Shown here piece by piece: positions 23,260 to 57,859 of a DNA stretch of 64,000 bases (within the stretch, counting starts at the first letter, position 1; each line of letters starts with the position of its first letter). The DNA comes from Diphasiastrum complanatum (Eukaryota > Streptophyta > Lycopodiopsida > Lycopodiales > Lycopodiaceae). Below the pieces are notes generated by a model. It did not search any database. It was not told the DNA's origin and worked only from the letters and a program-made list of their open reading frames with translations. Location of the stretch: the NCBI GenBank assembly GCA_029204225.1, contig CM055097.1:50874195-50938194 (forward strand), in the 5' to 3' direction. The translations under genes were made by a program, and so were the position numbers.

Positions 23260-23299
23260 CATTAGAGAAACTTAGAACCCGACGAGGGCCTTTAAAAAA
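23260..23299 (+). repeat. Terminal inverted repeat of T, left end
   Basis: CATTAGAGAAA, 13 variable bases, then GAGGGCC and an A/T-rich run. The copia frame is interrupted exactly at its outer edge. No target-site duplication is recognisable. Confidence 0.6.
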
Positions 23300-23737
23300 A
23301 ATTTTTTTTTATTTTTTTTTATTTTCGTTGCCATGTGGACCAATTGAAATCTTCGTTTTGGGGTTCTACGTAACGTAGAGTTTTTCAAATATAAATAAAA
23401 TAAAATAAATTTAAATATATTGTTGTTTCGTCAAGCAGGATGTGAAAATGCTATTGGTTGATGAGGCCTGCCCTTCCAGCTCATCATTGTCCGAAGAGAC
23501 CCAAAAATATTGAAAATGAATATGACAGATGGTTGAGGAGAGAAAATCGATGTACCATTAATGTATATGCATTGTCAAACCATGGTTAACAGGGATAACC
23601 AGAGTTAATTTTTGACGTCAAATAGATCAGTGTTTCAAATTTTTGCCAACACTTTTTTTCAGATTCATGGCTTTTTGTTTACGCAAATTTTCAGATTCAT
23701 AGTTCATTGTTTCATATTTTTGCATGCATATTATGAA

Positions 23738-25042
23738 TGGCACCATCAAAGAAACCGTGCTCCTCAATCGACTCTGTGCTTCTATTCAACAAGACAGATG
23801 ATAATGGATTACGGGTGCCAAGAAAATATTCAAAAAACTCTTGGGTTTTGATGCATTCATCATCAAGAGGAGCATTTTGAAAAAAGAAAAAGGTCAAAAC
23901 TATCATTTTGATCTTATTGGAAGGTCAGAATTTTGGATTTCAGAACATCAGGAGGAAAATCTATCTCTAAAATTCTAGTCCAACATGTATATATGCATTC
24001 AGAGATAAATGTGCAAGGATTCAACCGTCAGGATCACAAAAAAAACAACTGTGAGTATTGATATTTTTGATACTTTGATTTTTTTCATAAATATCTAATA
24101 GTAAACTTGCCAATCTGATTATTTTTCTCTTGCAGATTTATATCCATCCAACATAAATGAATGGGAGCCGAGTGGACCATTAGCAGGTGTGTTAGATGCT
24201 ATTCACACTGATATTGGACAGCTGCAATATCAAGGTAGAACTGCAAAAGATCTAGTTGATAGTGGAATCTTTTTTTATGAATCAATGTACATTCTTGATA
24301 CAAAAATTTTTTTTGGACAAATAGTATCAATTCCATTATCTAGTTTTGAAAGTGATGAATGGATTGCACCAACTGCTACAGTTTCAGAATTATTTCATTG
24401 CAAGATATATAATGATGTAAAAAATTCACTAAAAATGAGCACGGGATCAAAAATAGTTAGATTGAGCTGGTTTATTTCCTTGAATATATTTGTGGATTTC
24501 TTTTCAAGTGTCAATGTTCACAAAACCCCGACGATGTTTGTATGCCAAAATTTATCAGATAGTTTATTATCTGAACTTATGGATGGAGAAATAGAATGTC
24601 TTTCATGTGCTTCCGTTATCAAATTGAAAAACAAATGTTAAGCTTATGCTTCCATTATCAAAGATGGAAAAAAATTAAAGGTAAATGGGTGCCACTCGAT
24701 CAAGACTTGGAAGCCAGTGGAGATTCAAAACAAAAAAATATTGAAATTATATACAATGATGCCGTTTTGACATGTGTTGAGGTGGAAGAAAATTGGAGTC
24801 TAAACTACATCCGGCGGGAACTATTGCTCCTACAAGATGATGTACTTTTGGACTTCAGATTCATTTTCAATGGTAAACTCGTAAGTAATTGTAAACACTC
24901 GATCTTTTATTAATAGTTTCAATCAAAACTTTCTAATACAATTTTTGTACTAGTTCTAACTAACTTTGTATTAGTTTTATGCGGGTACGTAAAAGATATG
25001 AGCTTGAGATCAAATGCAGAGATATTGACGAAACAATCTAAC
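23738..25042 (+). pseudogene. T gene A: protein with a ubiquitin-like C-terminal region
   Basis: Best reading starts at the ATG at 23738 (MAPSKKPCSSIDSVLLFNK), slips frame in an A6 run near 23832, then gives LLGFDAFIIKRSILKKEKGQ and GRSEFWISEHQEENLSL. After another slip and an intron (GTGAGT near 24050 to TTGCAG at 24135) comes the longest exon: DLYPSNINEWEPSGPLAGVL, FFYESMYILDTKIFFGQIV, VVRLSWF-like segments, up to a stop at 24639. A later stretch (24660-24881) gives WVPLDQDLEASGD and ENWSLNYIRREL ... FRFIFNGKL, then a GTAAGT donor and a possible exon MRVRKRYELEIKCRD. The pattern WSL..IRREL ... F.FIFNGKLV resembles a ubiquitin-like fold. No catalytic motif was seen. Stops and frameshifts show decay. 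The function is unknown. Confidence 0.5.
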
Positions 25043-25257
25043 TTATGGAAGAACATTGAGATTCACTATCAACAAATACATGCCAATCATCATGTCTTTT
25101 TATTATTATAGAAAAATTGCATTCCGTTATTAGACTATGGACACAAGCTGATTGTAATAATCTATTGTGATATCAATAAAAAAAACTCATAAACGGGTTG
25201 TTTAGAAGTAAAATGATTGTATCTTTTTTTTATGTCTCTCTATTTTCAAATCGACCT

Positions 25258-26700
25258 CTACTCAATCAATTTTTCTATATTTTCTATATCAGTATTAGGA
25301 ACTGATAAAGCAATAGCTCCTTCTATAATCTCCCTCTCCTCTGTTTCGGGAAGGGCCTCAATGCCTTTTAAGACAAGAGGAATATTTGCTACAAAATTGC
25401 CTTCCTCTGTATTAGGAAGGACTTTTATTCCTTTTTGATCATATAAAATAAGATCTGCATCCTGGACAACCTGAAAGGTTGTTAAGGTAGGAGCAGATTC
25501 TTTTTTAGGGCCCTCGATTGCAGGTGCAATGCTTACACCGTACTGGACAAAGGTTCTAATCAACTCTTGTCGAAATCTATATACATCATCAGGAGTATAC
25601 GACTCAAGAATGAATTGTCATCACAAAATACGAGAATCAGCAAATTTCAAACAATGATAGTAATAAAATATGAATCAGAATGAAATAAACTACAAATGAA
25701 TAGAATAATACCTTTTCAATATCTGCATCCGTTTGTAAATTATACCATTCAAAAAATAGCTTCGTATTGTACCGGACGAACCATGCACAACTAAAAGCGT
25801 CATTCTGTTGTACACACTACATATAGAGAACAAAAATTAGTAATATTATGATAGAAAATTTATTTATACTATGACGATACATTCGATTTAAGAAAAGGAA
25901 TACATGCATATCAGAGATAAATTGAATATACCTTCATAGATTTGATGGTTATATCTCCAATTGAAGTTGTCGTTGTTGATATTTCCCGAACGACATAATG
26001 AAGTAGAGAATCAAATTCTCTATGTATTTGTAGTTGAATTTAATTTTACACATAGAAAATTTGATACTCCCTCCTTATTTATCTTTACAAAGAACATGTT
26101 TAGGCTCCAATGCCGACTACAACAACCAAGATACAAATATCGATAACTTTATATTTATGAAAAAATTTCGTTCTTATTAACGCAATGAGGCATGCAACAA
26201 TCCAGAATAAAGCAACAAAAACAAAAGAGCAATCCTTACTTATTTTCATATGGAATCAAATAGAATTTTGACATAGGACTGCACTCGATAAAATAGATAG
26301 TCTTCTCAAAATTGGCCTCTTTCGCCTTTACCGCTCCCATGAAAAATGAACTTACTACAAAAACTGTACCATGGGAATCGAAACTAATACTATTCTGCAA
26401 AAATGAAATATCGGCCTCTACTATTGCATCTGAAATAACTGAGGTCTTATCTTTAAGCTCGGCACAAAATTTAGGACCTAATCTAAAGCTTCTACGTGTA
26501 TCTGGAAGAAAAAAATGAAAAAAGTTGTCGAGAAGATCAATTTTGTTAGCTAGGTAGGCCTCGTATTGATTATAATGGTCAGATTAAAAAAAAACCTGGG
26601 CTGGATCATATGGAATTCTCACAAAAAGATTATGTACAGGAGGGGCAGAAAGAGAAGTAGAAAAAATATTTACAGATTTCTCTGTTATTTTGTCTCTACT
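25258..26700 (-). pseudogene. T gene B: Ulp1/C48-like cysteine peptidase (copy 2)
   Basis: Exons inferred on the minus strand: 26700-about 26603 (SLSAPPVHNLFVRIPYDPAQ); about 26583-26240 (DHYNQYEAYLANKIDLLDNF ... FIECSPMSKFYLIPYEN) ending at GTAAGG; 26116-25932 (RHWSLNMFFVKINKEGVS ... REFDSLLHYVVREI) with the candidate His (HW) and Asp (FDSL); 25816-25712 (CVQQNDAFSCAWFVRYN) with Gln and the candidate Cys; 25602-25258, an acidic tail (YTPDDVYRFRQELIRTF ... NTDIENIEKLIE) ending in a stop. The intron before HW splits an Asn codon in the same phase as in the copy at 7.8-8.8 kb, and the Cys exon is phase 0 in both. A frameshift or stop lies between NSTTNT and REFDSL. The family removes SUMO-like modifiers; here it is probably transposon-encoded. 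Its N-terminal limit is uncertain. Confidence 0.65.
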
Positions 26701-26787
26701 CGGCGATACGGAGGTGGTGTGCATGGTGCCAGGGGGATCTGAGCTTCAATTTTTGGTAAGTGTAGGCTTGTTTTTTTGCAAGTGTTG

Positions 26788-26832
26788 ATCTTCATATAGA
26801 AGGAAGATGAACCAAAAGTGCTCAAAACAGCA
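26788..26832 (+). repeat. Family B LTR fragment in inverted orientation
   Basis: About 42 bases (CATATAGAAGGAAGATG, then ACCAAAAGTGCTCAAAA) match the reverse complement of the family B LTR around 31466-31510. It lies 0.5 kb from the truncated family B LTR at 27303, in opposite orientation, near the inferred inversion breakpoint. Confidence 0.5.
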
Positions 26833-27009
26833 TTGATTCTAGCAAGATCATAGCAAGTGCCAAAAAACACACGAGACATGACGAGGGATAGAATAATTCC
26901 AGTGCGAGCAAAAACGGACGACTGACGCTAGCATGGGAGTCCTTGCAGGCATCTAGGAGTCCAGTGCAGGCCTAAACCACGCTACTAGCGGATGCTTGCA
27001 CGATGCTCT

Positions 27010-27025
27010 AACCCTAAACCCTAAA
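27010..27025 (-). repeat. Telomere-like motif
   Basis: AACCCTAAACCCTAAA, two and a bit units of the plant telomere repeat on the minus strand. Surrounding sequence (26.84-27.30 kb) shows no gene. Confidence 0.6.
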
Positions 27026-27302
27026 AAACATGGAATTAGGACAAGAAAATTGAAATTTGTGCTACGGACGTAGACGGGCCGAACGGAAGTCACAGGAGTC
27101 TGTGCGGGCATGTGGAAATGCATTCTAGGGTCGGACATCACCTGAATCAGTTGCCCAGAAGCCATTTTCTGAAAATGGCAAAAAAAAAAAACAAGCATTT
27201 GGATTGTGGTGTTCAAAACTGACCCTGTAGGAATCACCGTGGGCATGAAGAAAGGTGGTCTAGAGCCAAACTACGCTTGATTTGGTTGCCTATAGCTCAA
27301 TG

Positions 27303-27587
27303 TACTTGGCAATCTTCTAGAAGTCAAAATTCGCCTACTTCAGCTTATTCCACACGTGTGAGCTGCCTCATGCAATCAATAGATTGATGCCATGTGTCAT
27401 GTGTCTAGAAAACTAGTTTTTGGCCATTTTAGCTACTAGAACTTGAATTAAATTATATGTACAACATATATGATTATGGTACATGGCAAGTACACTAGTT
27501 TCACACGTGGGAACATGCTCCACACATCTGTGTTTATCTATATACAAGATTTTTGGCCTCTACCAAGTTTATTTCGTATTTTTCACA
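27303..27587 (-). repeat. Partial 3' LTR, family B copy 2
   Basis: Aligns to the first part of the 832-bp LTR. Contains CACACGTGTG at 27351-27360. The abrupt left edge may be an inversion breakpoint. Confidence 0.85.
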
Positions 27588-27827
27588 CTCCTCCTCCAAA
27601 ATCTAGCTTGGTAAATCTAGCTTGATGGAAAACATGATGATCTTGAACTTGACTCCATGGGCTGAATTGGTCTTTGCTGGTTCAAAAGGTGTGAAGATCA
27701 GACAATGGGCTTGATGTTGATCTGAAATCACCATATCCATGATAGTGCTTCTTTGATGTTGACATCTTTGATGAGCTTGAGAGCTTTGCACCATCCTAGC
27801 ACCTCCAAAATTGATTCCTTCCAATTT

Positions 27828-29398
27828 TCATGTAGATGCTTGACCTTGAGGCTTGTTGTTACCACGATCTAGAGAATTAGACTCATCCAAATTGGCAAGA
27901 CTATGCATGCTATAATAACAAAGTGTTTGCATCATATCTTCATGCTTGTTTACCATGCTAATCTCTGATCCAATGAGGCTAAATACTTCATTATGGAGAT
28001 AAGTGTCTTTAGAAGATGATTCACTTACTCTCATAAAGAGTTTACAATTTGCCTCAATACAAATTTTCAAACTATGAGTGAACAAATCACTTTTGCTCTT
28101 ATATGACTTAAGAGCATACATTTGATGAAATAACCATTTGCTTTCTAATTTACAATCAATTTTAACCTTTTAAGAACATCATCTATGTTCTCAAGAGAGA
28201 CTTCATACTCAACTGGTATGGTTTTACTCCAATTTTGAGATGCAATGATCTCACTAAAGCAAACTGATTTATCAAATGACATAAGAGAAGTATGTATGTG
28301 ATGTATACCACATGAGATATGCTCCTTTTTCCCTTGATATGTGAGCCACATGGACTCAACCATATTTCTTGAGTTTCTTTTTGGAATCACAATATGAGAA
28401 GGTCTCTCCTCCTCAATCCTTGGCACACTTGAACCTTGAGAAGGATTCTCCTCCTCAATCCTTGGCACATTTGAACCTTGAGATGACTCCTTAAGATCCT
28501 CTCCATGGTGCTCCTTTTTTATGAAAATCCGAGACCTCCATGTCTCATAATGATCACAACAAGTATGACCATTCAATATGCACTTCCTATGATTATCAAG
28601 ATTACTTATGCTGAACACATAATTCATGATCTTATTGAAACCAAAAGATCCTACATTATGAAGATATTTCCATTTCCTTGACTTCATAACTAATGTAAGC
28701 TTACAAGGAAAACATATTTTGCTATCTTTTAAGGCATCACACTCAACTAGTATTGCCTTAATCCACCTCTGAGATACAAAAATCTCTTCAAAGCAAAATG
28801 GTTCCTCATAAATTGACATGATAGCATAAATGAAACCATTTTCATTTTATGATTGCTGCTCCTTATTCTTGATTAATTTCTCTTGGATCATAACAATAAG
28901 TTTGAGCTTATCTAAAGTTCCAAGCAAAATACTTTCCATGGACATAAAATAAATCCAAGTGACTTTCATGAAAGTGACATCTATCTTTGCATCTTGAACC
29001 AAACAATGCACTTCCAAATGAAAAATTTCAAAAGATTTGACATTTGTGATGGACTCTTGAAGACAAATCTTGCAAATGCTTGTGAGACTCCAAGCCTCAT
29101 TCACCTTTTCACAAAGGAAACACTTTTCCTTGGACTTGTCCTTCTTGTAGTTGCATTTTGAACTTGAAGCTCCATCCTTCTCCTCGGCCCCCTTGCTTTG
29201 GTTCTTCTTGGATGGATTGGTCTTCTTTTTATAGCATCTTGAGAAAATATATCCTCCCTTGCCACAAAGGTTGCACTTAGGATCATTTCTTTCCTTCAAT
29301 AGGATGCCACCTATTGATGTCATGTGAATAAAAACCTGTGATATGATTCTACAAATGTAATTTGTGACTTTCAAGAGACTAGATTTGAACATCTTCAA
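27828..29398 (-). pseudogene. Family B ORF, copy 2, broken
   Basis: Same protein as at 15882-17318 but in three open pieces (29398-28847, 28819-28145, 28121-27828). Starts MTSIGGILLKERNDPKCNL; the first Cys cluster reads CNLCGKGGYIFSRC, with both Cys of the first pair and Tyr at the His position. Has an internal duplication of the VPRIEEE linker. The C-terminal piece FMRVSESSSKDTYLHNEVF differs from the end of copy 1, so the two copies have different 3' parts. Interruptions indicate decay. Confidence 0.6.
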
Positions 29399-30991
29399 TA
29401 ATCTAGAATGATCTACAAAAGATGTAGCTCACAAACCTAAGAATCAATCTTCACAATAATGACTAGTCACTTGGAAACTTTTCTTTGATCACTAAGACAA
29501 AAGCACACAATCTTTGAATCAAATTGCTAAAGAAATCAGATCCAATCTCCTATTGGACTCATCAAATACCAATGACTCTTTCTTTTGAAAGTTGAAATCG
29601 ATATGAAAAAGATTTGACACCTCGATTTTCCTTTTCACTTGACTAATTCTCTCAACACTTGAGATTCTTGAACAAAAGATGGATTTTGTTTCAAATACAT
29701 GAAAATCAAACTTAATCACTTCTTTTGGACTCACTCTTGACCCAAATAATCTCACTCTTGAGATTTAGAATGAATTTGATTTGATTTGAAAACAAACTAT
29801 ACCACCAATTTTTCACAAAGCTTAAAAATTAGACAACTAGAGATTCACAAAGATCTCAACCATGCATGAATACTCAAATATGGACTCCTCCTCATTCTAG
29901 ACATCCAATGGGATCACAAATTGACCCTCACACTCTCACAAAGAAACTTGAATAGAACTAATTTGAGTTTCATACATTCTATGTCAATTTTTGCTCAACA
30001 AATTGAATTCAATCACTCCTATTGGATTCCACCAATGACTCTACCTCTTAAGAGTTGGAATGAAATTCAAAATCAAAAGTTGTGTTTTTTTCTCACTAAG
30101 ATATTGTGCTTCAAAGAGCTAATACCACTTAGAAAGATTTGATCACCTAGGAGAAGACAAATTCTTCAACTATAACAACACATAATGAGCTTCTAGATCT
30201 TGCCCTCTACAAAGGAAGGAACTCTTAGAAAACTGGATCTCTCTCTACACATTTGCCATAGACACCTTAATGACTCTTTTCAAACCTCACAAACACTCAA
30301 ACAAATTGAGTAGGATTGAATAATGTGAACTTGGATCTCAATCTCTTGTCTAGAACTTTCAATTGAAGCCAATCTATGTCAAATTCTACAGAAGATTTGC
30401 ATAGATGCTCTATATGCACTAGAACCTCTCAAAGGTTTCACTTGGAGGACAGATCCAAGGATGTTTTCTAGCAAATTGATGCTTCTAAACTTGACCCTAT
30501 CACTCTTGAACAAATCTAGAGTGATGGTACAATGGATTTCAACCTCTCACCTTGCATATCACTCCTTAATCTATGATTTTTAGCAAAATCTCTCTCAACT
30601 TACAACATACACTCACAAAATTAGAGAAGATCAATTAATGCACCTATTTCAAGCTTCAATTTTAATTTTTTTTTGCTGATCTAATCCAAGAACTAATCAA
30701 GGGATTAGATTTTCTATAGAAAATGCTTGATTTTGCACCAAAAATCACTCAAATTGGGTATGTGAGTCAAATTCTACAGATTTTTGAAATTTATAAGTCA
30801 AAACCAGAGCTGTAGGGCCTCACACGTGTGAAAAGGGTTCCTACAGCCCACAACAAGATCTGGACCAAAAATTTTGAGGATAAATATCAAATCCAACTCG
30901 CTACACAAAATTTGACTAGTTTCCAAAAAACTGCTAATTTTGGCTTTGATTTGGATTAACCCTATCAATTTCAACAAAACCTCTTGTACTA
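29399..30991 (-). other. Leader of family B copy 2
   Basis: Collinear with 17319-18979. No coding signal. TCACACGTGTGA at 30820-30831. Confidence 0.6.
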
Positions 30992-31004
30992 GGCTCGGAT
31001 ACCA

Positions 31005-31836
31005 TGTGGAAAAAGTACAAAAAGGACCAAGAGTGGATCCTAATCTGATCTTCAAGAGGGATTGGTTGTCAGATTACTTGATCTATCAATCTGCTTGAGA
31101 TTAAGATCAATCTAGATCAATTCTAGACACAAAATCCTAACAAGAACAATCATTAATTGAAGGTAGGTGTACTTTCTGGTTTTACACGTGTGAAACACTG
31201 TCTGAGTACGGACTCCAACCTGAAAATCAAGTACACATTGATAGAACCTCAAAACAATCAAAACAAATGTAGACAAATAGAGAGAATCACTCAAAATTGT
31301 TTCCAAAACCAAAATTGGTGTCTCACAATGATTATGGCCAAATGTGGTCCTATATATACAATAAGTGCGAGCTCGTGGTACTGATCATCCCTCTGATCCC
31401 ACATGTGTGAAGGTGCTTTTTCATATGATGATTCATCATGCAAAACTGACACTTGGACAAAACCTTCTATTTTGAGCACTTTTGGTCCATCTTCCTTCTA
31501 TATGGAGATCTACTTGGAAATCTTCTAGAAGTCAAAATTCGTCTACTTCAGCTTATTCCACACGTGTGAGCTGTCCTCTACACATGGGATATGACACCTA
31601 ACCAAAGGATGTGGCTCATGCAATCAATAGATTGATGCCATGTGTTATATGTCTTAAAAACTAGTTTTTGGCCATTTTAGCTACTAGAACTTGAATTAAA
31701 TCATATGTACAACATATATGATTATGATACATGACAAGTACACTAGTTTCACACGTGGGAACATGCTCCACACATGTGTGTTTATCTATATACAAGATTT
31801 TTGGCCTCTACCAAGCTTATTTTTGTATTTTTCACA
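31005..31836 (-). repeat. 5' LTR, family B copy 2 (832 bp)
   Basis: Same ends and the same length as the LTR at 18993-19824. Contains CACACGTGTG at 31559-31568 and a one-mismatch version of the long palindrome near 31179-31198. Directly abuts a compound microsatellite on the right. Confidence 0.9.
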
Positions 31837-31928
<92 letters not shown>

Positions 31929-31947
31929 ATGTATGTATGTATGTATA

Positions 31948-31995
<48 letters not shown>

Positions 31996-32064
31996 TAATA
32001 TATGTATGTATATGTGTGTGTGTGTGTATAAAACTATATATACATACATTTATATATATGTAGA

Positions 32065-32106
<42 letters not shown>

Positions 32107-32117
32107 TAATATATGTA

Positions 32118-32167
<50 letters not shown>

Positions 32168-32201
32168 AAACTATATATATATATATATATATATATATGC
32201 A

Positions 32202-32239
<38 letters not shown>

Positions 32240-32244
32240 TATTT

Positions 32245-32301
<57 letters not shown>
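31837..32301 (+). repeat. Compound (AT)n/(GT)n microsatellite
   Basis: Alternating runs of AT and GT with short interruptions (GT run 31849-31918; further GT runs near 32115-32164 and 32205-32235; AT runs between). It starts at the last base of the LTR. All open frames here are repeat artefacts. Confidence 0.97.
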
Positions 32302-32302
<1 letters not shown>

Positions 32303-32404
32303 TAGTAAAGAGTGTCCATCGTTGACGGGCAATGGAGGCCGATTTAGGTGGCGGCCGATGATTTTGATGATGGCCGATCTCGCACATCTCGCATCTTGAA
32401 TATC

Positions 32405-33285
32405 TAATATTTGAGTCTTTGAAAAAATTTGAGTCTTTGGAAAATTTAAGTCCTTGAAAAAATTTGAGCCTTCGAAAAAATTCAAGTTTTCGAAAAAATT
32501 CTAGTCTTCTTTGAAAAAAAAAATCGAGTCTTTCGAAAACATCGAGTCTTTGAAAAAATTTGAGTCTTTGAAAAAATTCAACTAGACTATACAAAGGGTC
32601 CTTCGATCATTCGAAAAAATTTGAGTCTTTGAAAAAATTCAAATTTTGAAAAAATTCGATCCAATTCGAGTCTTCGAAAAAATTTGAGTCTTTCCAAAAA
32701 TTTGATTCTTTAAAAAATTCAAGTCATTGAAAAAATTCGATCCATTGGAAAAATTCAATCCTTTGGAAAAATTCAATCCATTAGAAAAATTTGAGTCTTT
32801 GAAAAAATTCGAGTCATTGAAAAAATTCGATCCTTTGAAAAACTTTGAGTATTTTCAAAAATTCGAGTCTTTAGAAAAATTCGAGTCGTTCCCAAAATTT
32901 GAGTCGTTGGAAAAATTTGATCCATTGGAAAAATTCGAGTCTTTCGAAAAAAATTCGAGTCTTCTCAAAAATTCGAGTCTTGAAAAATTCGAATCTTTCG
33001 TAAAATTCGAGCCTTTCATAAAATTCGAGTCGTTTCAAAAATTTGAGTCGTTCCAAAAATTCAGTTCCTGAAAAATTTGAGTCTTTAAAGAAATTCAAGT
33101 CTTTCAAGAAATTTGATCTTTTGGAGAAATTCGATCCGTCAAAAAAAATTGAGTCATTCCAAAAATTTGACTCGTTCCAAAAATTCGAATCTTCCGAAAA
33201 ATTTAAGTCTTCAGAAAAATTCTCGTCATTGGAAAAATTCGAGTTATTCCAAAAATTCAAGTCTTCCAAAAAATTTGAGTATTAC
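32405..33285 (+). repeat. Minisatellite, about 18-bp unit (GAAAAATTCGAGTCTTT-like)
   Basis: About 880 bp of degenerate tandem units, period 18 (some 9, 15 or 16), consensus close to TTGAAAAAATTCGAGTC. Because 18 is a multiple of three, several frames stay open on both strands. On the plus strand at 32727-33071, 114 codons encode hexapeptides such as KFESLE and KFDPLE; on the minus strand, 132 codons encode NFSEDL-like repeats. No promoter, start context or conserved domain was seen, so I treat it as a satellite. Confidence 0.85.
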
Positions 33286-33299
33286 GAAGGTCGAATGCA

Positions 33300-36247
<2,948 letters not shown>

Positions 36248-36683: not shown

Positions 36684-37094
36684 GCAAAAACAAACTTCAT
36701 AATTAGCGACTATAGCTGGTCACTGACATTACACTGGCTTAGAAAATATGCATCTATCATGTCTTCTCAAAACCATTTACAATGTATCTAAACATCGATG
36801 GTTACATGACATGGTTTGATTAGATGCGATAGTAGTGAACTCTTCACACATTGTCATAGAATACCATATCCTCCATACAAATGTTGGTACATTCTACATT
36901 TATCAACCGCTATGCTAAGGTTTTTTGTGCAAGAGAAAGCAAAGCAAGAAAGCATTAACATTTTTCTCTCAGAACTATGACACTGAACCACTACAGAAAA
37001 TGCCCTTCTGCTCATGTAGTTCTTCAGCCAAGCCGATTTGGTAGTGTTTTACATAAACAGTTGTCTTCAAACTACGAACAACGACATACACATA

Positions 37095-38844: not shown

Positions 38845-38848
<4 letters not shown>

Positions 38849-43474: not shown

Positions 43475-43569
43475 TTGTTTTGGACGACACATCCTTAACT
43501 TAACCAAGGTGATCAAGTTGATCTAACAAGCGTCTTCATTTTTTAGGACAAATGTTTCAGTAGGGGAAG

Positions 43570-44748: not shown

Positions 44749-45181
44749 AAGCCATTGTCTTTCATCGTTGGCAATCATCATTTAGAAGACGAGAATGAGT
44801 AGGTAAGACTCTCACAAATTTTAACCATTCATAATAGAGTTCAGAAGCAACTTCATTGATATTAGATTGTCGTAAAGTAATATAATTTAAACTTTTTTCC
44901 AGCTATTTGCGTACAATCAGTAGAGACAACATGTCAAACAAAAACCCTTAAACCGATTAAAATAGTTTTCTATCTCAAAGTTGCAAAAATCCTCAAAAGG
45001 GAAATACCAATCACTTTTAACATTTGGTAAGTATGATCAACCGAAAGTAACATCATCAAAGTACTCGTTTATAACACCAAAAAGGCTAAATAAAATGTGA
45101 GCATAAAACTACTTTACATGAATGGTTTCAAAAACTCTATTACGATAACATAAATGCAAAAAAGATCTCCATGTATCGCAA

Positions 45182-46757: not shown

Positions 46758-47245
46758 GGGGTCATAATGGGATATAGTAAAAGTAGGAATCTAGGCTAGA
46801 CTTTATAACTTAAAATTAGAACTTAGAACTTGGTATTAGAAATTAGAAACTTGTGTTGAATATCTTTGTAGAATTCGATATAGCAAGTCAATGATGATGA
46901 GCAATTTGGAATGGTGATGAACCAAGGAAGAACAAAATGTATGCTTTGCATCAAGAGATAGAAGGTGCTGTTGGACAAATTTTACTTCAATAAACAGATG
47001 GAGAAGAATCAAGTATGAAAATTCATGAAGTTTAAAATATTTTGCCTCCCTCTTAAGGGCACAGTGTCAAAATTACCTTGAACTGCCTTCCACACATGGG
47101 AAATACATCAGCATAATCATCTACGAAGACAAGCTAAATCTACGACAGTTGTTGCAATATCTTTGACATATTTTCATTTATTGAAGGTGCACCTTTTCTT
47201 CTATCATGTTATGATCCAAGAAGGAAGGCGTTAATCTCAAACAAG

Positions 47246-47468
47246 ATGCAGCTTGTGCTCATGCATCAGCATCAGGTAGCGCAGCCCCAGTCGGCGCCAC
47301 GGCTGTGGACTCCCTTTCTTCCAACTTCAAGCTTACATGGTTTTAAAGTGAGCTCTGCTACAGTGCTTCGGACGCCAGGATATGCCCAGCGGGGTGCTTT
47401 GCACGTGGCGGCTAGTTCCAGTGCTCAAACGGTTGCGCCATCCGTTTCTCAGGATACACCTTCCCCTA
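47246..47468 (+). pseudogene. First exon of a plastid-targeted protein (transit peptide)
   Basis: MQLVLMHQHQVAQPQSAPRL then WTPFLPTSSLHGFKVSSATV and RGALHVAASSSAQTVAPSVS: rich in Ser, Ala, Thr and Arg with almost no acidic residues until the end, and an ALHVAASSS segment like a plastid transit-peptide cleavage region. A donor site (CCTA|GTACAT) at 47468/47469 would end the exon. Local GC content is higher than the surroundings. No following exon was found, and a LINE relic begins at 47.59 kb. It looks like a captured or orphaned first exon; which protein it belonged to cannot be told. Confidence 0.5.
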
Positions 47469-47589
47469 GTACATTTTTTTTTCCATTTTTTCTAGCTTTT
47501 GAAGGGCTTCCCATATCTTGGTCTTCCTCACATTCACCTCACCCCAGGCACCCCTGTTAAAACTTGAGGAGCACATCAGTATGTCTTTA

Positions 47590-48400
47590 TAGACCCTCCT
47601 TGGAGGATGCGAATAGAGTGGCAGTGAGTGGACACCATTGCTTCACTTTTCCAACCAAACTTAGTGTGAGCCCTCGGAGAGGTGGAAAATGGATAGACCA
47701 AATATGCCTATGCAAACCAGGATGATTGATAGCCCTACTCAAAAAGCTTTATCAAAGAGGTACGTACTAGCCAAGAATATCTACCTATTCTAGTATCTAC
47801 TGCACCGAAGGAAATTACCTATTGAATATATATGATTTTTTTTAGATGACCTCTAGTTGAATGGGAGACACAACAAACTCGGCCAAGACGATCAGATGGG
47901 GGAATGAGGGTTTATTACGAATTATGCTTGATAGTAGTAGATACTTGGAGATGTAAAATTCTGGCCCAATCCAAAGTTGTTGTAAGTTCAGTACACTAGG
48001 AATCAACTGCATACATGGTAGTAGGTGTAATTAAGGTGTCAAAGAGGTGAAACCTACTATGTGGATCATGTATAAAACAAGCCCACTCCATTTCGACAAG
48101 AGAGGGCTGGCCCTTCCCAAGCTGATAAGTGGTAGTTGGTCTCATGTGGCAGATAGATGGGATCGAAGAATAAGATTCCTAGGTTCGCATAGGTCGATAC
48201 AATCTCCAACTCTGATCATCTAGGGTAAGAATTTGATGTTGCATGAATGAGTGAGATGTATTGAAGACCATGACTTGGATCTTGAGTACATTCACTTCCA
48301 AACTGCTGTCTTGGCAAAAGGCACGTAGGGCATTAATATGCCATTGCAATCCTTCTTGGGTCAAAGACTCGGAGAATCCAGGACTACATCCACTTATAGT
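47590..48400 (-). pseudogene. LINE (non-LTR retrotransposon) reverse transcriptase, C-terminal remnant
   Basis: Minus-strand reading: LQWHINALRAFCQDSSLEVN then IQVMVFNTSHSF, matching the RT segment L..HL.AL..FC...GL.VN..KT.VMVF. After a stop come RLGKGQPSL-like bases with VEMEWACFIHDPHSRFHLFD then TLITPTTMYAVDS, the conserved region downstream of RT in plant LINEs (M.W.C.I.DP..RF.LFDTLV.P..LYG.E.W). The catalytic YADD region and endonuclease are missing. Several frameshifts; 5'-truncated dead copy. Confidence 0.75.
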
Positions 48401-48599
48401 AAAGGAAAGGATCTATCACACTATTTCTCCACACTAGTACTATTCTCACTTCCACAACTCTTTTTTTTCTTTCAAATACTCCAAAACCATCTGCAAATCC
48501 AGAGCATCCACAACACTCCTTACTACATCATAACAAAACTTGAAATAGCAAAAATCAAATGGAATATCTCAAAGAGATCTTAGCTTGAGCCTTCTTCCT

Positions 48600-50560
48600 G
48601 CTTCCAAACCAAGGAGTTGCACACAATGATGGACCACATTGGAGCATTCTCTACTGTAAAAATGTGATTACTTGAATGCAAAATATAAAAGAATGGAGGC
48701 CTAAATAGTATGGCACCCATCCTTGGGGGTCACCACCTTGTTGGCCTTCATTTGTCTTTACTCAAAATAAGAATTGGTCATAAAAAACATTTATATTCTA
48801 TTGCGCATACTGAACACATGTAAGAAAGGTTGGAAGAGGATTTGAAGTACTTTGTGTGCTCAGTTATACCAAAATCTGTGAGAAATTTGGACAACAAGGA
48901 CTTTCGACTAGGATCAAACGAGGAAGCCATAGGCTAGTATCGGTTTTGTGTGAGAGGGGACTATCCGTGGAAAAAGGAGTACACTACACGTACACAGAAC
49001 CGATATGTATGGACTGAGGAGTCTAATATAGCCATGCTTAGTTTAATTCCTTATTTTAAGTTGAGACATTCTCTTCAAAATAACATTTCTTAAGAGCTTT
49101 AACCTTGAATGAGAATTGCTTCTCTACATAAGCTTTGAAAATAAGGAACTGATCCCAAATGTCCAGATCAGTTCAAAGCAAGCAACAACAGTCATTTTTA
49201 AATTAGTAGTAAGCATCCTCGTAATGTATTATAAATTGATTTTGTTTTCTAATCTGACACACACTTAGGTTCAGAAAGATAGTAAAGAAGACAAACTTGT
49301 TCGTTTGTTTGTTCTCTGAGATTTGCTTTGATGTCTTATTGCTAGTTCCTATAGAATCACTTGTCAAAACCCAGCTAACTTTGACCTTGCTTTCTCCAAA
49401 GTACGACTTGTAAGTGATAAAGTGAAGCTGAAGGGCAACTCACAATTTCAGCTCAAAGGTTCTCAAACCTTTGCTTGCTTGCACTCAATTCCAATATGGT
49501 TCAACAACTTTAGTCATCAACTTTGTACTTTCGCTCAAAAACATTCTATAAACATTGAGTAGCAATGGCCACTAGCAATTTAGTAGGATATGCCTAAGGG
49601 AGTTGTCCTTTTGGTGGATGTTTCCTGTTTGTATGCAACAACCTATTGTTACCTTCTTCGGTTGATGTGCGATTGGTAGTTGTTGGCAGGGATTATAAAT
49701 TAGTACTAGTTTATTTTGGATTCGTTGCTCGGTTTGAGAAACATTAATAAGGATTTCTGAAATTATTTTGCTAAAATGACAATCTAATGGGTTCTTCTAG
49801 GAGAGAATTTGTGGATCAAACACTGGTGTGTAAAATGTTATCGCGCGGAAAGGAAATTTGGATTGGTGTGCGGTTTAGTGTAGAACTAGGTTAGCTCAAA
49901 AGACTTTTAACTACTTGCTCAAATCTACGACACAACTGTAGCCAGCAGCTTCAATCCTCACTCAAAAACTCAGAATCCACTAGGCTAGATTATAGCAATC
50001 ATCCAAAGTGACTTCTTTTTTGTAGAACAGGTCATTGAATGATCTACGTACGATCCAGATCATTGAAAAGATCAACTGTTTTGCTCCAAATTGTTTGCTG
50101 ACGTGAGATGAGAGGAACTATTTGAAAGAGATACTCAACAATCTTCCAGGCGCATCCATTAGTAGTTGTTTCAAGCGAAAGTAAAAAACAAATGTCACAT
50201 TTTTTGTTTGGGTGCAGGATGGAACATAAACAGCCTATAGGGTTTTGAAAGTAATCCACAAACAACGTATGTTGGACTGTACACTGTGACAACCTAAAGA
50301 AGACCTCTCATTTGACATCAAAAGAGTAGTTGTAAAGCTTACGATACAAGTCCGATTGTCGGTCTTTCAAGGTTTTGGAAGTGTTGGCTTTGTTAGTTTT
50401 AGATGTTATGTTGTCATAGAGAAAAACAAAATTCTCTGTGAAAAAAAATAAATTTAAAAAAAAAAAGTACAATTGGTGACCAGCAGCTCCATCTCAAGGA
50501 TCGACAGTTGATCTCACAACTTCCGACATCTCTCGTCTTCGCCCTCTCAGTATCAAATGA
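48600..50560. other. Mostly featureless, with one copia integrase scrap
   Basis: No gene supported. At about 49075-49150 the minus strand encodes FLIFKAYVEKQFSFKVKAL, nearly identical to the integrase segment at 4708-4775 of the copia element, so a short fragment of that family is embedded here. No LTR attached. Confidence 0.6.
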
Positions 50561-51035
50561 CCACCATCTTATGTCACTCCTCCTCTAGACTCCCCTCCTC
50601 ATTCGCGTTAGGCTGTGCTTCTTGCTGATGGTTCCATGCTTGTCTCCTCCTCTGTTCCTCCTTCTGCCAACTCTTCCCTTGGCACTGCCCCCGTTTGGAT
50701 GTGAACCTCCTTTGACCCTTGTTGCATTGCCTTCTCAACCCCTCGAACAGATTCCTTGCCATGCTTGCGGTCACTTCTTCTCTCTTGGAAGAGTCTTGCT
50801 TGTCACCAACGTTCATTGCCTTGCACTGCTTCAATCGTCTCAAGATGGCCCTCCTCTCTTAGCACTTCATTCGCCCTCTGTTTCAACTACACGAGTCTTC
50901 ATCTCGATCGCTTACGCGGTTGACCCCTACGGCATTGCGGCTTGGAACTTGTTCCTTCTTTTTTCCCTGTGGTGTTTGGTCCTTCCTCCAAGGGGTGGGG
51001 ATGCTAGTCATTGAGAAACTCATGCATATCTTCGT
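50561..51035. other. Open but unrecognised stretch
   Basis: A 130-codon plus-strand frame (50622-51014) is Pro/Leu-rich and has no recognisable domain or start context. Left as unassigned. Confidence 0.3.
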
Positions 51036-51662
51036 CATGATCAAGTTCTATTAGAGTTTGCATCTCATTCATAGAGTAGATGCTGATTTTTCTACATTGG
51101 CAAAATTGGTAGAGTAGTTTTTTTTGTAACCAAAGATCCTTTATGGATTTGGATCATTTACGATCTGAATTCTTTCACATGGTATCAGAGCTTGTGTTTC
51201 AGGTTATGAAGGAGGAAATCAGATCTATCAATGATTTGGTGAAGATATCAAGGCTAGAGCGTGCTAGAGAGGATTTTACACCAAAATCGAGTTTCTTGCA
51301 TTTGTAGATTGGATCTTTTGTAGATCAAAACCCTATATAGGTTTATAAACTTGATCAATTCCGATTTTTAAATTCACATGCTGGATTTGACCGATTTTTG
51401 GATCATTGGATCAACCTAAGTGGTGGCTAATATATTGCATATCAAAATTTTAGCATTTTCATGTAGATTTGGAATAATCAATTTTTTTGTGATTTTGTCA
51501 AAACCCTAATTTTGATTGGATCTCTAGATAGCGAGGTTGTTGGACTTCATTTGAGTGTGTTTCGATCTTAGAAAGTGGCAAGAGTCATTAGATTGAGGAT
51601 AAATCATAGGTTGATCAAGATTTCATAATTCTATGTGTTGATTTGCTTGGTATAAGTGCTGT
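51036..51662 (+). mobile_element. Family A fragment: LTR 3' end, primer-binding site and leader
   Basis: 51036-51179 matches the last part of the family A LTR (AGAGTTTGCATCTCATTC, TGCTGATTTTTCTACATTGG) ending TTTCACA; PBS TGGTATCAGAGC at 51180-51191; the leader then aligns with 10546-11020. It ends abruptly at about 51662, where a copia RT coding region begins on the opposite strand. Confidence 0.8.
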
Positions 51663-53154
51663 AAGGTACATCAGTGATCCTATCAGCTTCCTATAAGGTG
51701 TGAGCTGCATTTGTTCTCTCTCTTCCTCAGTCTTTGGACAGTCGTCGCTTGTCAGCATCGTCCCTGCGAGCATTGGAGTGTTCGCTCCTTTTCAGTTCAT
51801 CCCAAAGTCCTCTAGGATATTCTAGGTGGACCGGTGAAAGTATAAATTACCTCCCTCGTAGTCCCCTTCAATTTGTAAGCCTAGGTAACACCTGGTTTCT
51901 CCCAGATCCACTATCTCAAAATGTTTCCAGATGTCTTCCTTTACTTCAGCAATTAGCTGCTCTCTCTTGCAAAGTATCAGAGTGTCGTCCACATACACAG
52001 CCACAATGATGATCTACCCATCTGTAATTCTGACATATACATTGGAATCAGCCAACAGAGGCTTGAATCCTAATGATTTCAGGGCTTGATCTTTCTTCTT
52101 GTACCATTGTCGGGCTGATTGTCTCAGACCGTAGATGCTTCTATGCATTCTACATGCATAGTCAAGAAGTGAATTCGAGACATTCCCTGGAGGTTGATCC
52201 ATGTAGACCTCTTCGTCTAGTTCGCCATGCAAGAAGGCTGTCTTCTTGTCTACAATGTGGATCCTGAGGTCATAAGCTGCTGCATATGCAAATAACAAAC
52301 GTAGGGACGAATGTTTGATGACAAGAGAGAAGGTTTCAGAGTAGTCAATACCATATCTCTGAGAGAAACCTTTCGCTACCAGTCTTGTCTTGTATTTCGT
52401 GATGTTCTCATTTGGTCCATATTTGAGCTTGAAAACCCATTTGCATTTGACAGTCTTGCGCTTATGTGGTAATGGCTCCAACGTCCATACCTGGTTCTTC
52501 CTCATGGACTCCATCTCTTCGTTCATGGCTTGGATCCATCTATCCTTCTCTGGACTGTCAATCGCTTTCTCGAAAGTCTGTGATTTGCCACTGAATCCGC
52601 AAAACTCTTCTGATGTGGAAACTGAACTGCCTGGCACATATCTTGATGGTGCTCTTTGTGGTCTTGTCGACCTTCTAGGAGATCCTCCTGGGATAGCTAT
52701 GTCTTTGCCTTTGTCTGCTCTACCGGAACCATCTTGAACTGCTGCGGCAGGTTGCCTCTCGAATCTTTCTTCTTCAGATTCGTCGTTCGAATGGGAGACG
52801 ACTCGAAAATCTTTGTTTTTGTGTTCGTCCTATGCTCCCTCTTTCATTGGCGGCAGGTCATAGTACTGTCTCTCCAGAACTTCGTAGCTGACAGGATCGT
52901 CATTGGCCATTGTCCTGCTCTCATCGAATATGACATCTCTCACTGTTTTCACAGTGTTTATGTTTGGCATGTAGACTCTGTAGTATGACGAATTGTTGTC
53001 ATAACCTACCAGAAATCCCTGTTCGGCTTTCTCATCAAGCTTCTTTCGAAGCTTACCAAGAATATGTGCATAAGTTGCACAGCCAAAGATTCTGACATGA
53101 GATAGATTGGGCTTTCTACCCCACCATAGCTCATGTGGTGTCGTGTGAGGTACA
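51663..53154 (-). pseudogene. Copia integrase C-terminus to RT (split element, 3' half), minus strand
   Basis: On the minus strand from 53154: HTTPHELWWGRKPNLSHVRI and GCATYAHILGKLRKKLDE (integrase C-terminus), a linker with SPRRSTRPQRAPSRYVPGSS, then the RT domain: DRWIQAMNEEMESMRKNQVW, CKWVFKLKYGPNENITKYKT, SIYGLRQSARQWYKKKD and the catalytic MAVYVDDTLILCK intact near 51995. One stop lies at 52828-52830 (TAG or TGA after MKEGA). The end QLTPYRKLIGSLMYL (about 51665) is the RT-RNase H connection; RNase H is lost. It starts at the precise residue where the 5' half (21.2-23.26 kb) stops. Confidence 0.85.
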
Positions 53155-53195
53155 CATTAGAGAAAATATGGGCCCAAAGAGGGCCCTATAAGAAA
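53155..53195 (+). repeat. Terminal inverted repeat of T, second end
   Basis: CATTAGAGAAAATATGGGCC followed by CAAAGAGGGCCC; the first 11 bases are identical to the left end. Flanked on the left by minus-strand copia sequence. Confidence 0.6.
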
Positions 53196-53523
53196 TACCA
53201 TGTAGGAGAGAGAAAAATAGCTATAAAGTAATAATAATATTATTTTCTAACTTCTTTACGCATCTGCCCGCACTACTTTCCATGTAAATGAATGCACCTT
53301 AGTTTAGTCACATCAAACTTCACTGGTGTTTAACCACAGTTAAAATGTAATTTTTCAAAATGCTGAAATATTCCCTCCCAATAGTTGGGAACACTCAAAA
53401 ATTTGAACTAGAAGTGACATTTCTGAAGAAAGCTTACGCCATCTCTATCTCCAGCAGAGTCGTTAGCGCCATCTCCAGCTTTGTTATTGTCATTGTGTTG
53501 TTTGTTCCTATACTACTATACTG

Positions 53524-56232
53524 ATGACAAAGCTTTATCATCTTCATATGGATCTGTCACCAGAATATGCTCCGCTCAAGACGAGAAATTCAAAGCAACC
53601 CAAATTGTCAACTTCTGATATGGTCCGATACAGGGAGGAAAAACTAAAACATGTAGATTTATGGTCATCAGGAACATTGTATCCTATTGATCCATGTTCA
53701 TTGCAACATCCAGATTTTCATTCGGTGAGTCAGTTAATAATCTATATGTGTCATGATAAAAATGGCCTTTTGGGTTACTGTGAGAATTTAATGCTCTATG
53801 GGAATGCACATTCAATGCAAAGAATACATTATTTGGAAGAGGAATCAAGGGAAATATCAAAGGAGTGCGAAGAAAAATCTACAAAGATAAAAACTTGTTT
53901 GGATGAAAATGAGATGCTCAAAGAGGAGATCCAAAGGTTGAAATCTTCTTTGCATCATTATACAACTAGTAATGATGAGATAAAAATTGCATTTCAATCC
54001 ATGCGTATCTCATATTTGTCTCTTGTTAAAAATATGGATGTGCTCAACAGAAAGGTCCGAAGCAACAAGAGGAAAAAACTGGTAAACAAGGATATATGTG
54101 ATCTATCATCTAGAGGAGGTCATAGAAAAAGACGAATCCGTGCATTCAAGTAAGTTATAGCTTATTTGGTACTAAAAATTGCTTGAACTTTTTGATTTAT
54201 TCATAATCACTAATTTTGTTATTTATTTATTTCAACTTTCTGTTGATTTGCTTATTATATACTATTGTGAATACTGTGAGTGTCCTAATTTCTACTGACA
54301 TTTTATTATGTTTGCAATGCAGATTAGCATTGGTTATTGAAGACCATTTGGCCGATGAGATTTCAATTGGAAACTCACTAGGCTCTATCTTGACTTCTAA
54401 ATCTATGAAATCAATGTTAAATAATAACAAAATAAAAAAGATTAAGGCTTTAGTTACTGATAGCATTATGGATGAAGTTGGAAAAATATTAGACACTACA
54501 TTGTTTCAGGGGGCATGTGACTTTTCTAGCATTAGTAGGGAAACATATGCAAGAATGTTTAAGATGAATATTAAAGGAGGCATTTGCACAGGTAAATATT
54601 AAAAAGTTTCCAATCCCACGACCATTTCATCCTTTAGGTATGCGGACAATAGTTGGTAATCCACCTCATATCAATGAAATGTATTGCTCGAAAGGAAAAA
54701 GTCTAGCATATAACAATTCCAACAATTTATTTATTGACATTAATCAGTTATTAACATTTATCATAGATTTTTACGGTATTACAAATGAGAATGTCAATAA
54801 TAAGTTGATAGTTGTTCTCAAGTTAGATGAGTTTGAAATTATAGAAGGACAAAAAATGGAAAGAGTTAGTCTCACAATCATGAATGGAGCACTTTCAAAT
54901 TTAGAGGACTTAGAAGGCCTCAATTTCAATGTTTAATCAGAAAATGATATCTGGTGGTTGGTAGCATTTCAGATATAGCAGTTCATTCGCATAATAAATA
55001 GAGATAATTATTTGAATATGGATTTCATATCTAAAATCTTCTCTATGTTAATATTATGAGGCTAATCACATTTTTGTATTCTCTTATAGGTGCTGAAAGA
55101 AGACCATAACATTGCCACCATAAAAAATCACATGGAGGGAGTTCCACTCAATATTCCTAAAATTGGCACTTTCAACATTGAATGGCATTTAGCAGGAGAT
55201 CTGAAGACATTAAATATTTGTTGAATGTATCTCATGGCACCAACTCTGAACACCCTTGTTTGTACTGCATGAAAACAACAAAAGACATGACAAGGAGTTT
55301 AGGAATATCAAGAGATCGAGAAGATCCTAATTGGAAACCTGTAATACCGATTCCTCTATGAAATGTTCATATCTGTACATTGCATGCGGAGGTGCGTATT
55401 ATAGAAAAAATAATATATCTTCACATCTTGTTTGCATGGAATTTCGAGCCAGAGGCCTTTACAAAGAAAGCTATTTCCATATTAGAGGATGTGTTGTCCA
55501 AGGCAGGCTTACATAAAGGCCACGTTAAAATAAAAAAAGATGACAAGTTATCAGGTAAAACGAGAAATATTTCATGCAAGCCGAGCATTGGAAGATCTAA
55601 AGCTCGAAGATTTTTATCAAATTATTCTAGCAAACAATCTAAGGTTCAATACACGGTTTGGAAAAAAATTATTGCAGCAACTCAAGATTTCGAAGAAGAA
55701 GGTTCTACTCGTATACAAAAAGTAGAAGTTTGGAAAAAGTTAGACAATAAGGTGAAATACTTGAAGAAAGATAAATTTTCAAATACTGATGTTCAAATGA
55801 TACAGAAAACAACCAATGAATTTGTGGATGCAGTTTAGAGTGCATGGGGTGTTGATCATATAACACATTATATGGTAAGATTTTGATTTTACACTACCAT
55901 AGACAAATATGTGCAATTAAATTAGATACTTTTGATACTGATTTAGATTATGTTTTTATGATATGCAGCACATATTACGACATTATTCGACATTCTTTGC
56001 AAGAAATAGTGGAAATCTTAGCATATGGTCATCGCAAGGAATGGAAAAATCTCATTGGCAAACAAGAGCGGCATTTCATAAAAGTACACAACATGGCGGG
56101 ACTAGCACAAAAAACAGCTATATACTGCAACTTTTCCAATGCTTTTACAGAAGAATCCAAATTCGTCATAATACAAAATTAATGAATTATAAAAAAATTT
56201 CAAAAAGCGTGCAAATTTATACAAGCCAGTAG
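53524..56232 (+). pseudogene. T gene D: transposase-like protein with D-D-E-like motifs
   Basis: Exon 1, 53524-54149: MTKLYHLHMDLSPEYAPLKT, a coiled-coil (EESREISKECEEKSTKIKT) and a basic patch (KRKKLVNK, GGHRKRRIRAFK), likely DNA-binding or nuclear-targeting. An intron (GTAAGT to GCAG) leads to exon 2 from 54323, with LALVIEDHLADEIS, a frameshift near 54580, FPIPRPFHPLGMRTIVGNPP and IVVLKLDEFEIIEG (candidate first Asp), then stops at 54934 and 54978. Exon 3, 55090-55874: FNIEWHLAGDLKTLKYLL (candidate second Asp) and EHPCLYCMKTTKD (Cys pair), then NVHICTLHAEVRIIEK. Exon 4, 55969-56232: HILRHYSTFFARNSGN and SIWSSQGMEKSHWQTR (candidate Glu), ending in TAG. The motif order resembles RNase H-fold transposases of the type with GD..L......HPC.WC; assignment is inference. 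Multiple stops. Confidence 0.6.
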
Positions 56233-56306
56233 GTTATTTTAATATACAATACACAATAAAATTTTGTATATTAAATAAAAATATTTACAAAGTACAATTC
56301 AGCAGT

Positions 56307-57801
56307 ATCTAATCTGCTTCCGATATTTTTTCCAATGAAAGTTGCAACTTTGAATCATGCAACAATTCTTTTCTTTCGTATGGATCCAATAGCTCATAGT
56401 TTTCATGTTTACTAAGATCAACGTAAGCAACATACACTGCAAAATGAGATGATCTGAGCATGGAATTCACTGGTTCATATCCTAAAACTTTAATCGCAAT
56501 AGTTTTTTTTACAAAAATTATTTTATGCACCTAATTAAAATTATGTCATCCAAGAAAATGAGACAGTGCCTTGATTGCCATAATCATAGTTTCACCATGT
56601 TGATGAAACTTTGAATGGGCAACACTTATCTCATTATTCTTGAAGGACTTTAGATAGTGCCCGAGTGCATGATCTCTTGAAAATTCTCCCGCTGGAAAGA
56701 TCTTTGTCCTCCTCGACGAATTGCGAAATCATCAAGGAAAATTGTTTTCTGAAATGATAAAAAACAAAGTAAGCTCCAGTATATAATCTGACATAAAAAA
56801 TCTACTAGTACTTGATAAGAGACAAAAACTTACGCATTCGGCTTTGTCTTCTCTGAAAATTGTCTCACCATCAATATTATGTCCACCTTTTGATGTCAAT
56901 ATTGTTGGTGAATAGACAGCTGGCTGTGGAAATCCAAGTTGACTTTGGATTCTAAGAAACTCCTCCTCAGAAGACAGATCATCTTCTTTGTTGCACATTT
57001 CCTCCACAGCCATTTTCAAGCAATCTTTCCCTGAATAAAATTTATCATTATGTACATCGTCAACACCAGGGAGAAGATCATCAGCATAAAATCAATAATA
57101 TCCGAAAATTCATCAAGCTCTTTGCTCAAAATGCAAAGAGTCTCAGCTTCAATGAAGTTAAAAAAATCCGATATATCCGATATTGTCTAAAAGGAATTAT
57201 TATCTATATTATAAGTAGGCAAAATGATCAAACATTTATCAGAAGGAGAAAGGGTGGTGGGTGTTCTAGGGCCTATAAAGGTAGACCTATTTCGAGCAGG
57301 ATCAAAATCAGAACAATCATCTAAATTAACATTCGTATCAATAGAAAAGGTTTCTATATCTACAATTTTTGACTTTTCAGACTTTGTACCACTAGAAGAA
57401 ACTGCTTCAGAAGTGGAGGGCACAGAGTCCGAATTGTCAGAAATATTTAACAAAAGAAAAAAAAACAAAAGCAGACTGAAAATCAACAAATCTACATTTT
57501 TTATTATGAATTGGGCACTCATCTACAAATTTGAAATCATTATTTAACTTGGTAAACATTCTGTCAAACTTAGCTTTATAGATATGCTTGTTGAGTGCCA
57601 CCAAGTCCTGATAATGAATCATGTCTTTATTCTAAGACTTGAATAACGGAGTACTGAGCAAGGACTTAAATCTGAGATATATCTGAGTTATAAAAGGTAG
57701 AATAAAAAGAAAAGGAGAAAAAAGAGATTTGAAATAGTCCAACCTATCAGTAATACCAAATTCATTAAAAAAAGAAACCAAACTGGATTCAAAATTAGAC
57801 A
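56307..57801 (-). pseudogene. T gene C: acidic protein of unknown function
   Basis: Starts MSNFESSLVSFFNEFGITDR at 57801. Later segments are KLNNDFKFVDECPIHNKKC (57.55 kb), a Ser/Thr/acidic stretch (SDNSDSVPSTSEAVSSSGTK) at 57.45 kb, then FNFIEAETLCILSKELDEF (57.15 kb), a frameshift, ADDLLPGVDDVHNDKFYSGK and KEDDLSSEEEFLRIQSQLGF. The donor GTAAGT at 56832 joins in frame after an 85-base intron to KTIFLDDFAIRRGGQ (56746), then GEFSRDHALGHYLKSFKNN and GETMIMAIKALSHFLG. The final segment is LRSSHFAVYVAYVDLSKHEN then ELLDPYERKELLHD, with a stop at 56309. At least three frame breaks. Not similar to anything I know. In the original orientation of T it is divergent from the Ulp1 gene. Confidence 0.5.
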
Positions 57802-57859
57802 TTTTAAACAAAAATAACAGAACTGGAGTTCCAAATATCGCTCTCAGGCGCAAACACCA

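Follow-up and report, generated by a model that had tools for sequence, protein, structure and literature searches.

What kind of mobile element lies in this part of the Diphasiastrum complanatum genome, and why would it carry the genes that it does? The locus was studied in a window of 64,000 nucleotides (C6:50874195-50938194 in the plant's own genome of 1.74 Gb), where the original prediction, made from the sequence alone, placed a transposon with genes for a putative transposase, an Ulp1-like peptidase, a ubiquitin-like protein and an orphan acidic protein. We call this transposon T. Taken as a whole, the results are best explained, with high probability, by a cut-and-paste DNA transposon that has a transposase of predicted RAG1/Transib fold, inserts without target-site duplication and carries a histone H3 accessory gene. 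T probably belongs to a large and apparently undescribed group of such transposons in this genome.

The ends of T are inverted repeats of about 31 bp, 5'-CATTAG...CTAATG-3'. In the window, CATTAGAGAAA occurs exactly twice, at 23260 and 53155, and at each site GAGGGCC follows 24 bases further in. The first 31 bases of the two window ends match at 24 positions, a value reached by 104 of 2,000,000 random pairs of window positions, and by 48 once pairs at most 200 bases apart are left out. When the outermost 300 bases at each end are aligned locally, the score is 20.5 against a shuffle mean of 20.4, and the likeness is therefore restricted to the ends. In all genome scans (for the ends, the transposase, the copia flank, P0006-like transposases and H3) the best candidates were scored from larger sets. 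For the right end, the best 40 of 1768 candidates are 95-96% identical, the window itself apart; 27 of them start at the first base exactly. The best 40 of 1858 left-end candidates are 90-92% identical, except for the window and one near-identical contig, and 26 start exactly. All 40 matches begin within 5 bases at either end. The termini read CATTAG in 19 of 20 copies and CACTAG in the remaining one. The pair of matching ends proposed earlier is thus confirmed, and it bounds copies of the element in the genome.

Among 20 copies taken from the right end, six have both ends, inverted with respect to each other and separated by 1.7 to 8.5 kb; these two-ended copies carry deletions. The left ends of L010 and L015 lie beyond the 10 kb examined, with an extrapolated length of about 10 kb, and the ends of the C3 copy are 10.7 kb apart. 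Read from the right end, the genes follow in the order transposase (+), acidic (-), H3-Ulp1 (+) and L (-) before the left end. In L016 and L021 (8.5 kb) parts of all four genes are found between both ends. The proposal of one element with terminal inverted repeats that holds four genes, to be recognised by copies of 8-10 kb between the same ends, is borne out by these two loci. Homologs of the transposase, the left orphan and the acidic gene (E 7e-113 to 3e-51) show that the predicted coding relics are real genes. A 1.7-kb deletion derivative that keeps both ends is seen at L027 201-1921.

At the window locus, T is a decayed and rearranged copy whose two halves belong to one insertion into a copia retrotransposon. 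Copia coding sequence (in window 22421-23258, Pfam rve E 2e-11 and gag_pre-integrs E 5.2e-7) runs to 23259 on the plus strand and resumes at 53154 on the minus strand. The outer copia flanks of T join exactly, with one frame open over the junction and a stop about 100 codons later. Both ends read on the plus strand here, and are not inverted, because the locus is rearranged; about 2 kb present in other copies is missing at the breakpoints 26695 and 57858. The limits first given for T (23260..57853) are to be corrected: its left half stops at 26695, and the right one extends to 57858. To be noted, a second version of the left T locus, L037 (C4260:24276-34275), is about 99.5% identical to window 23156-27733. 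It is without 211 bases (window 23926-24136) and has about 5.6 kb extra at 26695, including the lost H3 region; haplotype, duplication or an assembly matter are the alternatives for this pair.

The copia host also provides the empty site. Eight copia copies in this genome were selected because they match the left flank. Seven of the eight intact copies align gap-free to the joined flanks over 240 bases; the exception is L046 with 14 gap columns, of which the visible one begins 20 bases past the junction. The insertion site reads GG/TGT (the slash marks the junction) in all eight, and therefore T inserted with neither duplication nor loss. This alignment shows a precise insertion at the window site and rules out a hidden duplication there. 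No target-site duplication of at least 2 bp is present in any of nine paired T ends, two of which (C3 and C5) were paired by position with the interior unread, the C5 flank being judged by eye. A 1-bp match occurs at five of the nine, with about two expected. In L043, an element of another family, no target-site duplication is seen.

Two other accounts of the locus have to be weighed against a single precise insertion. The shared orientation of the window ends could suggest two separate insertion events from one family, whose contents by chance do not overlap. The outer flanks refute this, as they are opposite sides of a single copia gene and join without a gap; the original prediction had noticed that the parts share no gene content, and other copies hold both halves. 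It might also be that the missing duplication is only apparent, ends of different copies having recombined together, since the window locus is rearranged and is the one locus whose empty site was examined. We consider this very unlikely: the empty sites equal the joined flanks base for base in seven of the eight copia copies. In addition, the joins of L020 and C3 run through what we take to be copia-like protein motifs, and the flanks of L043 are presumably copia integrase by their motif, the left one holding a stop. Open frames in five of seven further joins point the same way, weakly, as six frames are allowed.

The transposase gene has ten homologs (E 9.8e-104 to 2.5e-51). Both candidate catalytic Asp residues are conserved in all 11 aligned rows, the Glu is present in all three rows that reach its position, and the Asp/Asp/Glu spacing is like that of RAG1, so the residues guessed from the window alone were well chosen. 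In a modest-confidence model of the homolog P0001, the predicted fold resembles the RAG1 core, which fills ranks 1-35 of a structure comparison. Because no CACTA structure is among the compared rows, the fold cannot separate RAG1/Transib from CACTA. Zinc motifs of the form C(2)C and H(3-4)H (C528/C531 and H761/H766 in P0001) lie between the second Asp and the Glu. The first Cys is conserved in 9 of 11 rows and the second in 10 of 11; three residues separate the histidines in the window and four in P0006, L042 and L043. L043 has Ser in place of the second Cys. A hidden Markov model of the family found no RAG1/Transib chain in the PDB set, and no transposase model is among the 25 listed of 28 Pfam families (E <= 10) matched by 11 family members; TNP2-type transposases are absent from the same 25, a search in which distant members can be missed. 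The earlier view that this transposase stands outside every known group does not hold, as fold and zinc motifs probably place it in the RAG1/Transib/CACTA group. The reading as an apparently undescribed lineage stands, with no Pfam match for the transposase and no report in the literature searched. Related transposases are very common in the own genome: two distant queries gave 20242 and 16765 first-look candidates, the scored relatives being 32-59% identical piecewise, and a more distant P0006-like clade has 136 matches. The idea that T is part of a virus or bacterium was rejected, as pattern scans followed by tblastn on viral and other genome contigs, which reach only loci with the chosen peptide patterns, confirmed no transposase relative. 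A Helitron identity does not fit either, since T has inverted ends and a transposase with a predicted DDE-type fold.

As judged from sequence, T's family encodes a histone H3-Ulp1 fusion whose C-terminal half is the Ulp1-like peptidase. In L010 a single frame with one stop starts at MARTKSTAR, covers the H3 fold and a linker and continues into the Ulp1-like part. In L015 a stop immediately precedes the H3 fold, and from the fold onward the frame is open as far as the beginning of the Ulp1-like part. The unedited L015 stretch matches the Pfam Histone model with E 2.6e-21, and its closest solved chains are H3, aligned gap-free over 86 residues; identity to the best solved H3 is 41/86 for L015 and 45/85 for L021. 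The tail is of the ARTKQTARK type, reading MARTKSTAR in several T copies. H3 is present in 10 of 21 T loci, and L037 keeps it with a lesion. The original prediction recognised the Ulp1-like gene correctly and missed the fusion, because the window lacks the H3 region; an apparent start codon of the Ulp1-like gene near 26722 was dropped, as T ends at 26695. The Ulp1/C48 active-site residues His, Asp, Gln and Cys occur in this order, with all motifs intact in L015, L020 and L037 and partial motifs in L009, L010, L021 and L022; they can also be read in the window. With Pfam PF02902 the Ulp1-like part scores 17.2 bits, below the cut-off of 20.7. No homolog of it was found in a protein search, and PDB and NCBIfam searches gave nothing. 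A joint protein search with Ulp1-like and acidic pieces returned only the acidic-gene homolog, and its length limits may hide Ulp1 exons.

H3 is not confined to T's family and occurs in two related ones, sampled at L042 and L043. The transposases of L042 and L043 are 74% identical to each other over 351 codons and 29-41% identical to the transposase exons of T. At both loci an H3 fold is encoded, split over two frames in each; its C-terminal 53 residues reach Pfam E values of 1.3e-11 and 8.1e-14. The L042 protein starts with MARTKQTARR, followed by about 300 low-complexity residues before the fold, and the L043 tail is degenerate, MAWMKQTAR; no Ulp1 match or motif is seen near either H3. Both loci also have a diverged L-gene homolog (about 32% to P0012) and an acidic-gene homolog, G2b, with weak matches in nine of the 21 T loci (best E 7e-9). 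L043 has inverted ends of 31 bp that start with CATTAG and are 8725 bp apart. At L044, of the same family as L043, no H3 or L is seen, and the locus appears cut off after the acidic gene. An H3-like protein, an L protein and an acidic protein are accessory genes common to the families. Relative to the transposase, the acidic and H3 genes point one way in T and the other way in L043, so an inversion of the middle block took place in one lineage.

With P0001 as query, 51 transposase loci were scored in the own genome, all families together. Within 10 kb of 26 of them lies a scored H3 match, with 0.09 expected at random. In 25 of these 26 cases H3 lies on the opposite strand, 2.3-3.1 kb past the transposase match, and in one it is 5.1 kb the other way. 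Both lists are limited to the top-scoring matches and may include haplotype copies; because the H3 query was of the L043 type, the other 25 transposase loci are uninformative. The whole-genome H3 matches to this query are the best 150 of 4649 candidates, and 138 of the 150 are stop-free over 53 residues. Between L042 and L043 the H3 genes differ by 0.16 at second and 0.61 at third codon positions (49 codons), which indicates constraint on H3.

Two further alternatives concern the class of T and the standing of its histone. T could be a divergent CACTA/EnSpm element: CATTAG is one base off CACTAG, which one copy in 20 actually has, the C(2)C and H(3-4)H motifs are found in EnSpm too, and the predicted fold leaves the choice open as said above. 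Against it speak the lack of a 3-bp duplication and the absence of any transposase model among the Pfam families listed for the 11 members, and we regard this classification as rather unlikely. H3 in turn could be a passenger, a piece of a host gene picked up by chance in the manner of Pack-type elements. Plant DNA transposons do capture host genes, Ulp1 domains included, according to the accessible part of PMC13317346, and many of the H3 copies here are broken. A passenger would not be expected to keep the distance and strand seen at 25 of 26 loci, to persist in T's family, L042 and L043 despite their distant transposases, or to show constrained codon positions; the stop-free matches are weak support, as the list favours intact ones. 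Capture by chance therefore appears quite improbable. The fixed place of H3 in several families suggests that the element needs it.

The remaining two genes are orphans. The L protein has homologs P0011-P0013 (52-78% identical, E 7e-113 to 9e-74). The piece predicted as a ubiquitin-like gene is real coding sequence and forms the C-terminal part of the L protein, with no separate gene. The data do not show a beta-grasp fold: the piece has no Pfam match above cut-off, and the model of P0012, with a predicted local distance difference test (pLDDT) score of 38.5, gives only a strand-strand-helix-strand-strand order and is too poor to use. The idea of an element-encoded modifier and demodifier is accordingly not supported, the Ulp1 match also being under its Pfam cut-off. 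The acidic gene has the homolog P0014, a hypothetical protein of Diphasiastrum complanatum (E 3.5e-106). At about 4700-5551 of L010 its start region is apparently tandem-duplicated, with a recurring MSNFESS-like start and possibly a duplicated promoter.

Features of T and its copia host in the window
Feature	Position	Strand	Basis or remark
T terminal inverted repeat, left end (CATTAGAGAAA...GAGGGCC)	23260..23290	+	own-genome matches begin here, 26/40 exactly
T terminal inverted repeat, right end	53155..53185	+	window and own-genome matches
H3-Ulp1 gene, C-terminal exon (open-stretch limits)	25258..25617	-	window open reading frames
Ulp1-like exon (approximate), QQNDAFSCAW, active-site Gln and Cys	25712..25826	-	window reading; motif comparison
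Ulp1-like stretch (approximate), SRHWSL (His), EFDSLL (Asp), frame broken	25932..26125	-	intact motifs in copies
Ulp1-like part, N-terminal region	26236..26695	-	preceding linker and histone H3 domain of other copies missing here
Transposase gene, multi-exon, broken	53524..56232	+	10 homologs; alignment; predicted fold of homolog P0001
Transposase candidate Asp codons	54826-54828, 55198-55200	+	read by eye
Transposase CxxC; HxxxH	55257-55268; 55969-55983	+	read by eye
Transposase candidate Glu codon	56044-56046	+	read by eye
L gene (approximate), orphan protein, broken	24105..24886	+	homologs P0011-P0013
Acidic gene, broken	56309..57522	-	homolog P0014; weak homolog G2b in L043, L042
Inner breakpoint, T left half	26695		copies cease matching nearby; L037 goes on into H3 region
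Inner breakpoint, T right half	57858		several copies match up to right-half base 4705
Copia retrotransposon, 5' part (T's insertion target)	21184..23259	+	open reading frames; Pfam rve and gag_pre-integrs
Copia 3' part, same element, inverted (part used for joining)	52014..53154	-	joined frame; empty-site alignment

Elsewhere in the window, a repeated element occurs in two copies, 93.5% identical, at 16545-19825 and 28543-31837. Repeats resembling long terminal repeats go with this element at 27300-27587 and 31508-31836, and an 18-bp unit forms a tandem array of about 48 copies at 32409-33280.

In the mechanism that we propose, the transposase would excise the element and join it to the target without stagger. 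H3 most likely complexes with host H4 because its fold aligns gap-free, and the pair could be placed on the element DNA or on target chromatin. There it may shield the element from silencing or steer insertion. We give about even chances to a role in anti-silencing and targeting together, and a clearly smaller chance to a structural role in the transposition complex. In T's family the fusion would also carry a SUMO-type peptidase to that chromatin, where it would act on chromatin-bound SUMO conjugates. Such conjugates are often tied to silencing, and transposons are known to borrow enzymes acting on chromatin or DNA methylation. We lean towards a plant transposon superfamily with a RAG1-like transposase, duplication-free insertion and a private H3 as a standard gene that controls element or target chromatin, one family having added a SUMO-type peptidase. 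If this is true, it allows a direct test of whether selfish DNA builds or marks its own chromatin. Furthermore, an apparently duplication-free enzyme that, by predicted fold and motifs, may be distantly related to the V(D)J recombinase is relevant to the question of how enzymes of this kind space their cuts.

Among known systems, the accessible parts of the literature searched (including PMC9435367, PMC12730594, PMC13317346 and PMC4914335) hold no mention of a transposon-borne histone; most subscription papers lie outside that set, and this is no proof. Ulp1 domains are carried by Kaonashi Mutator-like elements (PMC13317346) and by Ginger, as by T, but their transposases are different and no histone is mentioned in the parts of the sources seen. 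TET/JBP-carrying fungal transposons resemble T in having an epigenetic protein as regular cargo; theirs, as far as the consulted part describes it, is an enzyme acting on DNA bases, whereas that of T is a core histone (PMC12730594). Transib-like proteins have already been reported in plants, and the RAG-like element AanRAGL has asymmetric ends starting with CAC and 5-bp duplications, in the portion of PMC9435367 available to us. T differs from it in its CATTAG ends and in the lack of a duplication, and no RAG2-like protein is recognised in T. With Transib/RAG it probably has the RAG1-core fold in common, and the 5-bp duplication is absent. T also resembles the CMCT clade (EnSpm/CACTA, Mirage, Chapaev, Transib, Plavaka, ESTA and Lanisha), for which the accessible text of PMC12730594 gives 5'-CA..TG-3' ends, present in T copies and in L043, together with C(2)C and H(3-4)H motifs; the duplications of that clade are 2-5 bp and T has none. 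We file T as a DDE transposon of CMCT type by predicted fold, motifs and ends, without the duplication of the clade and with a histone H3 gene.
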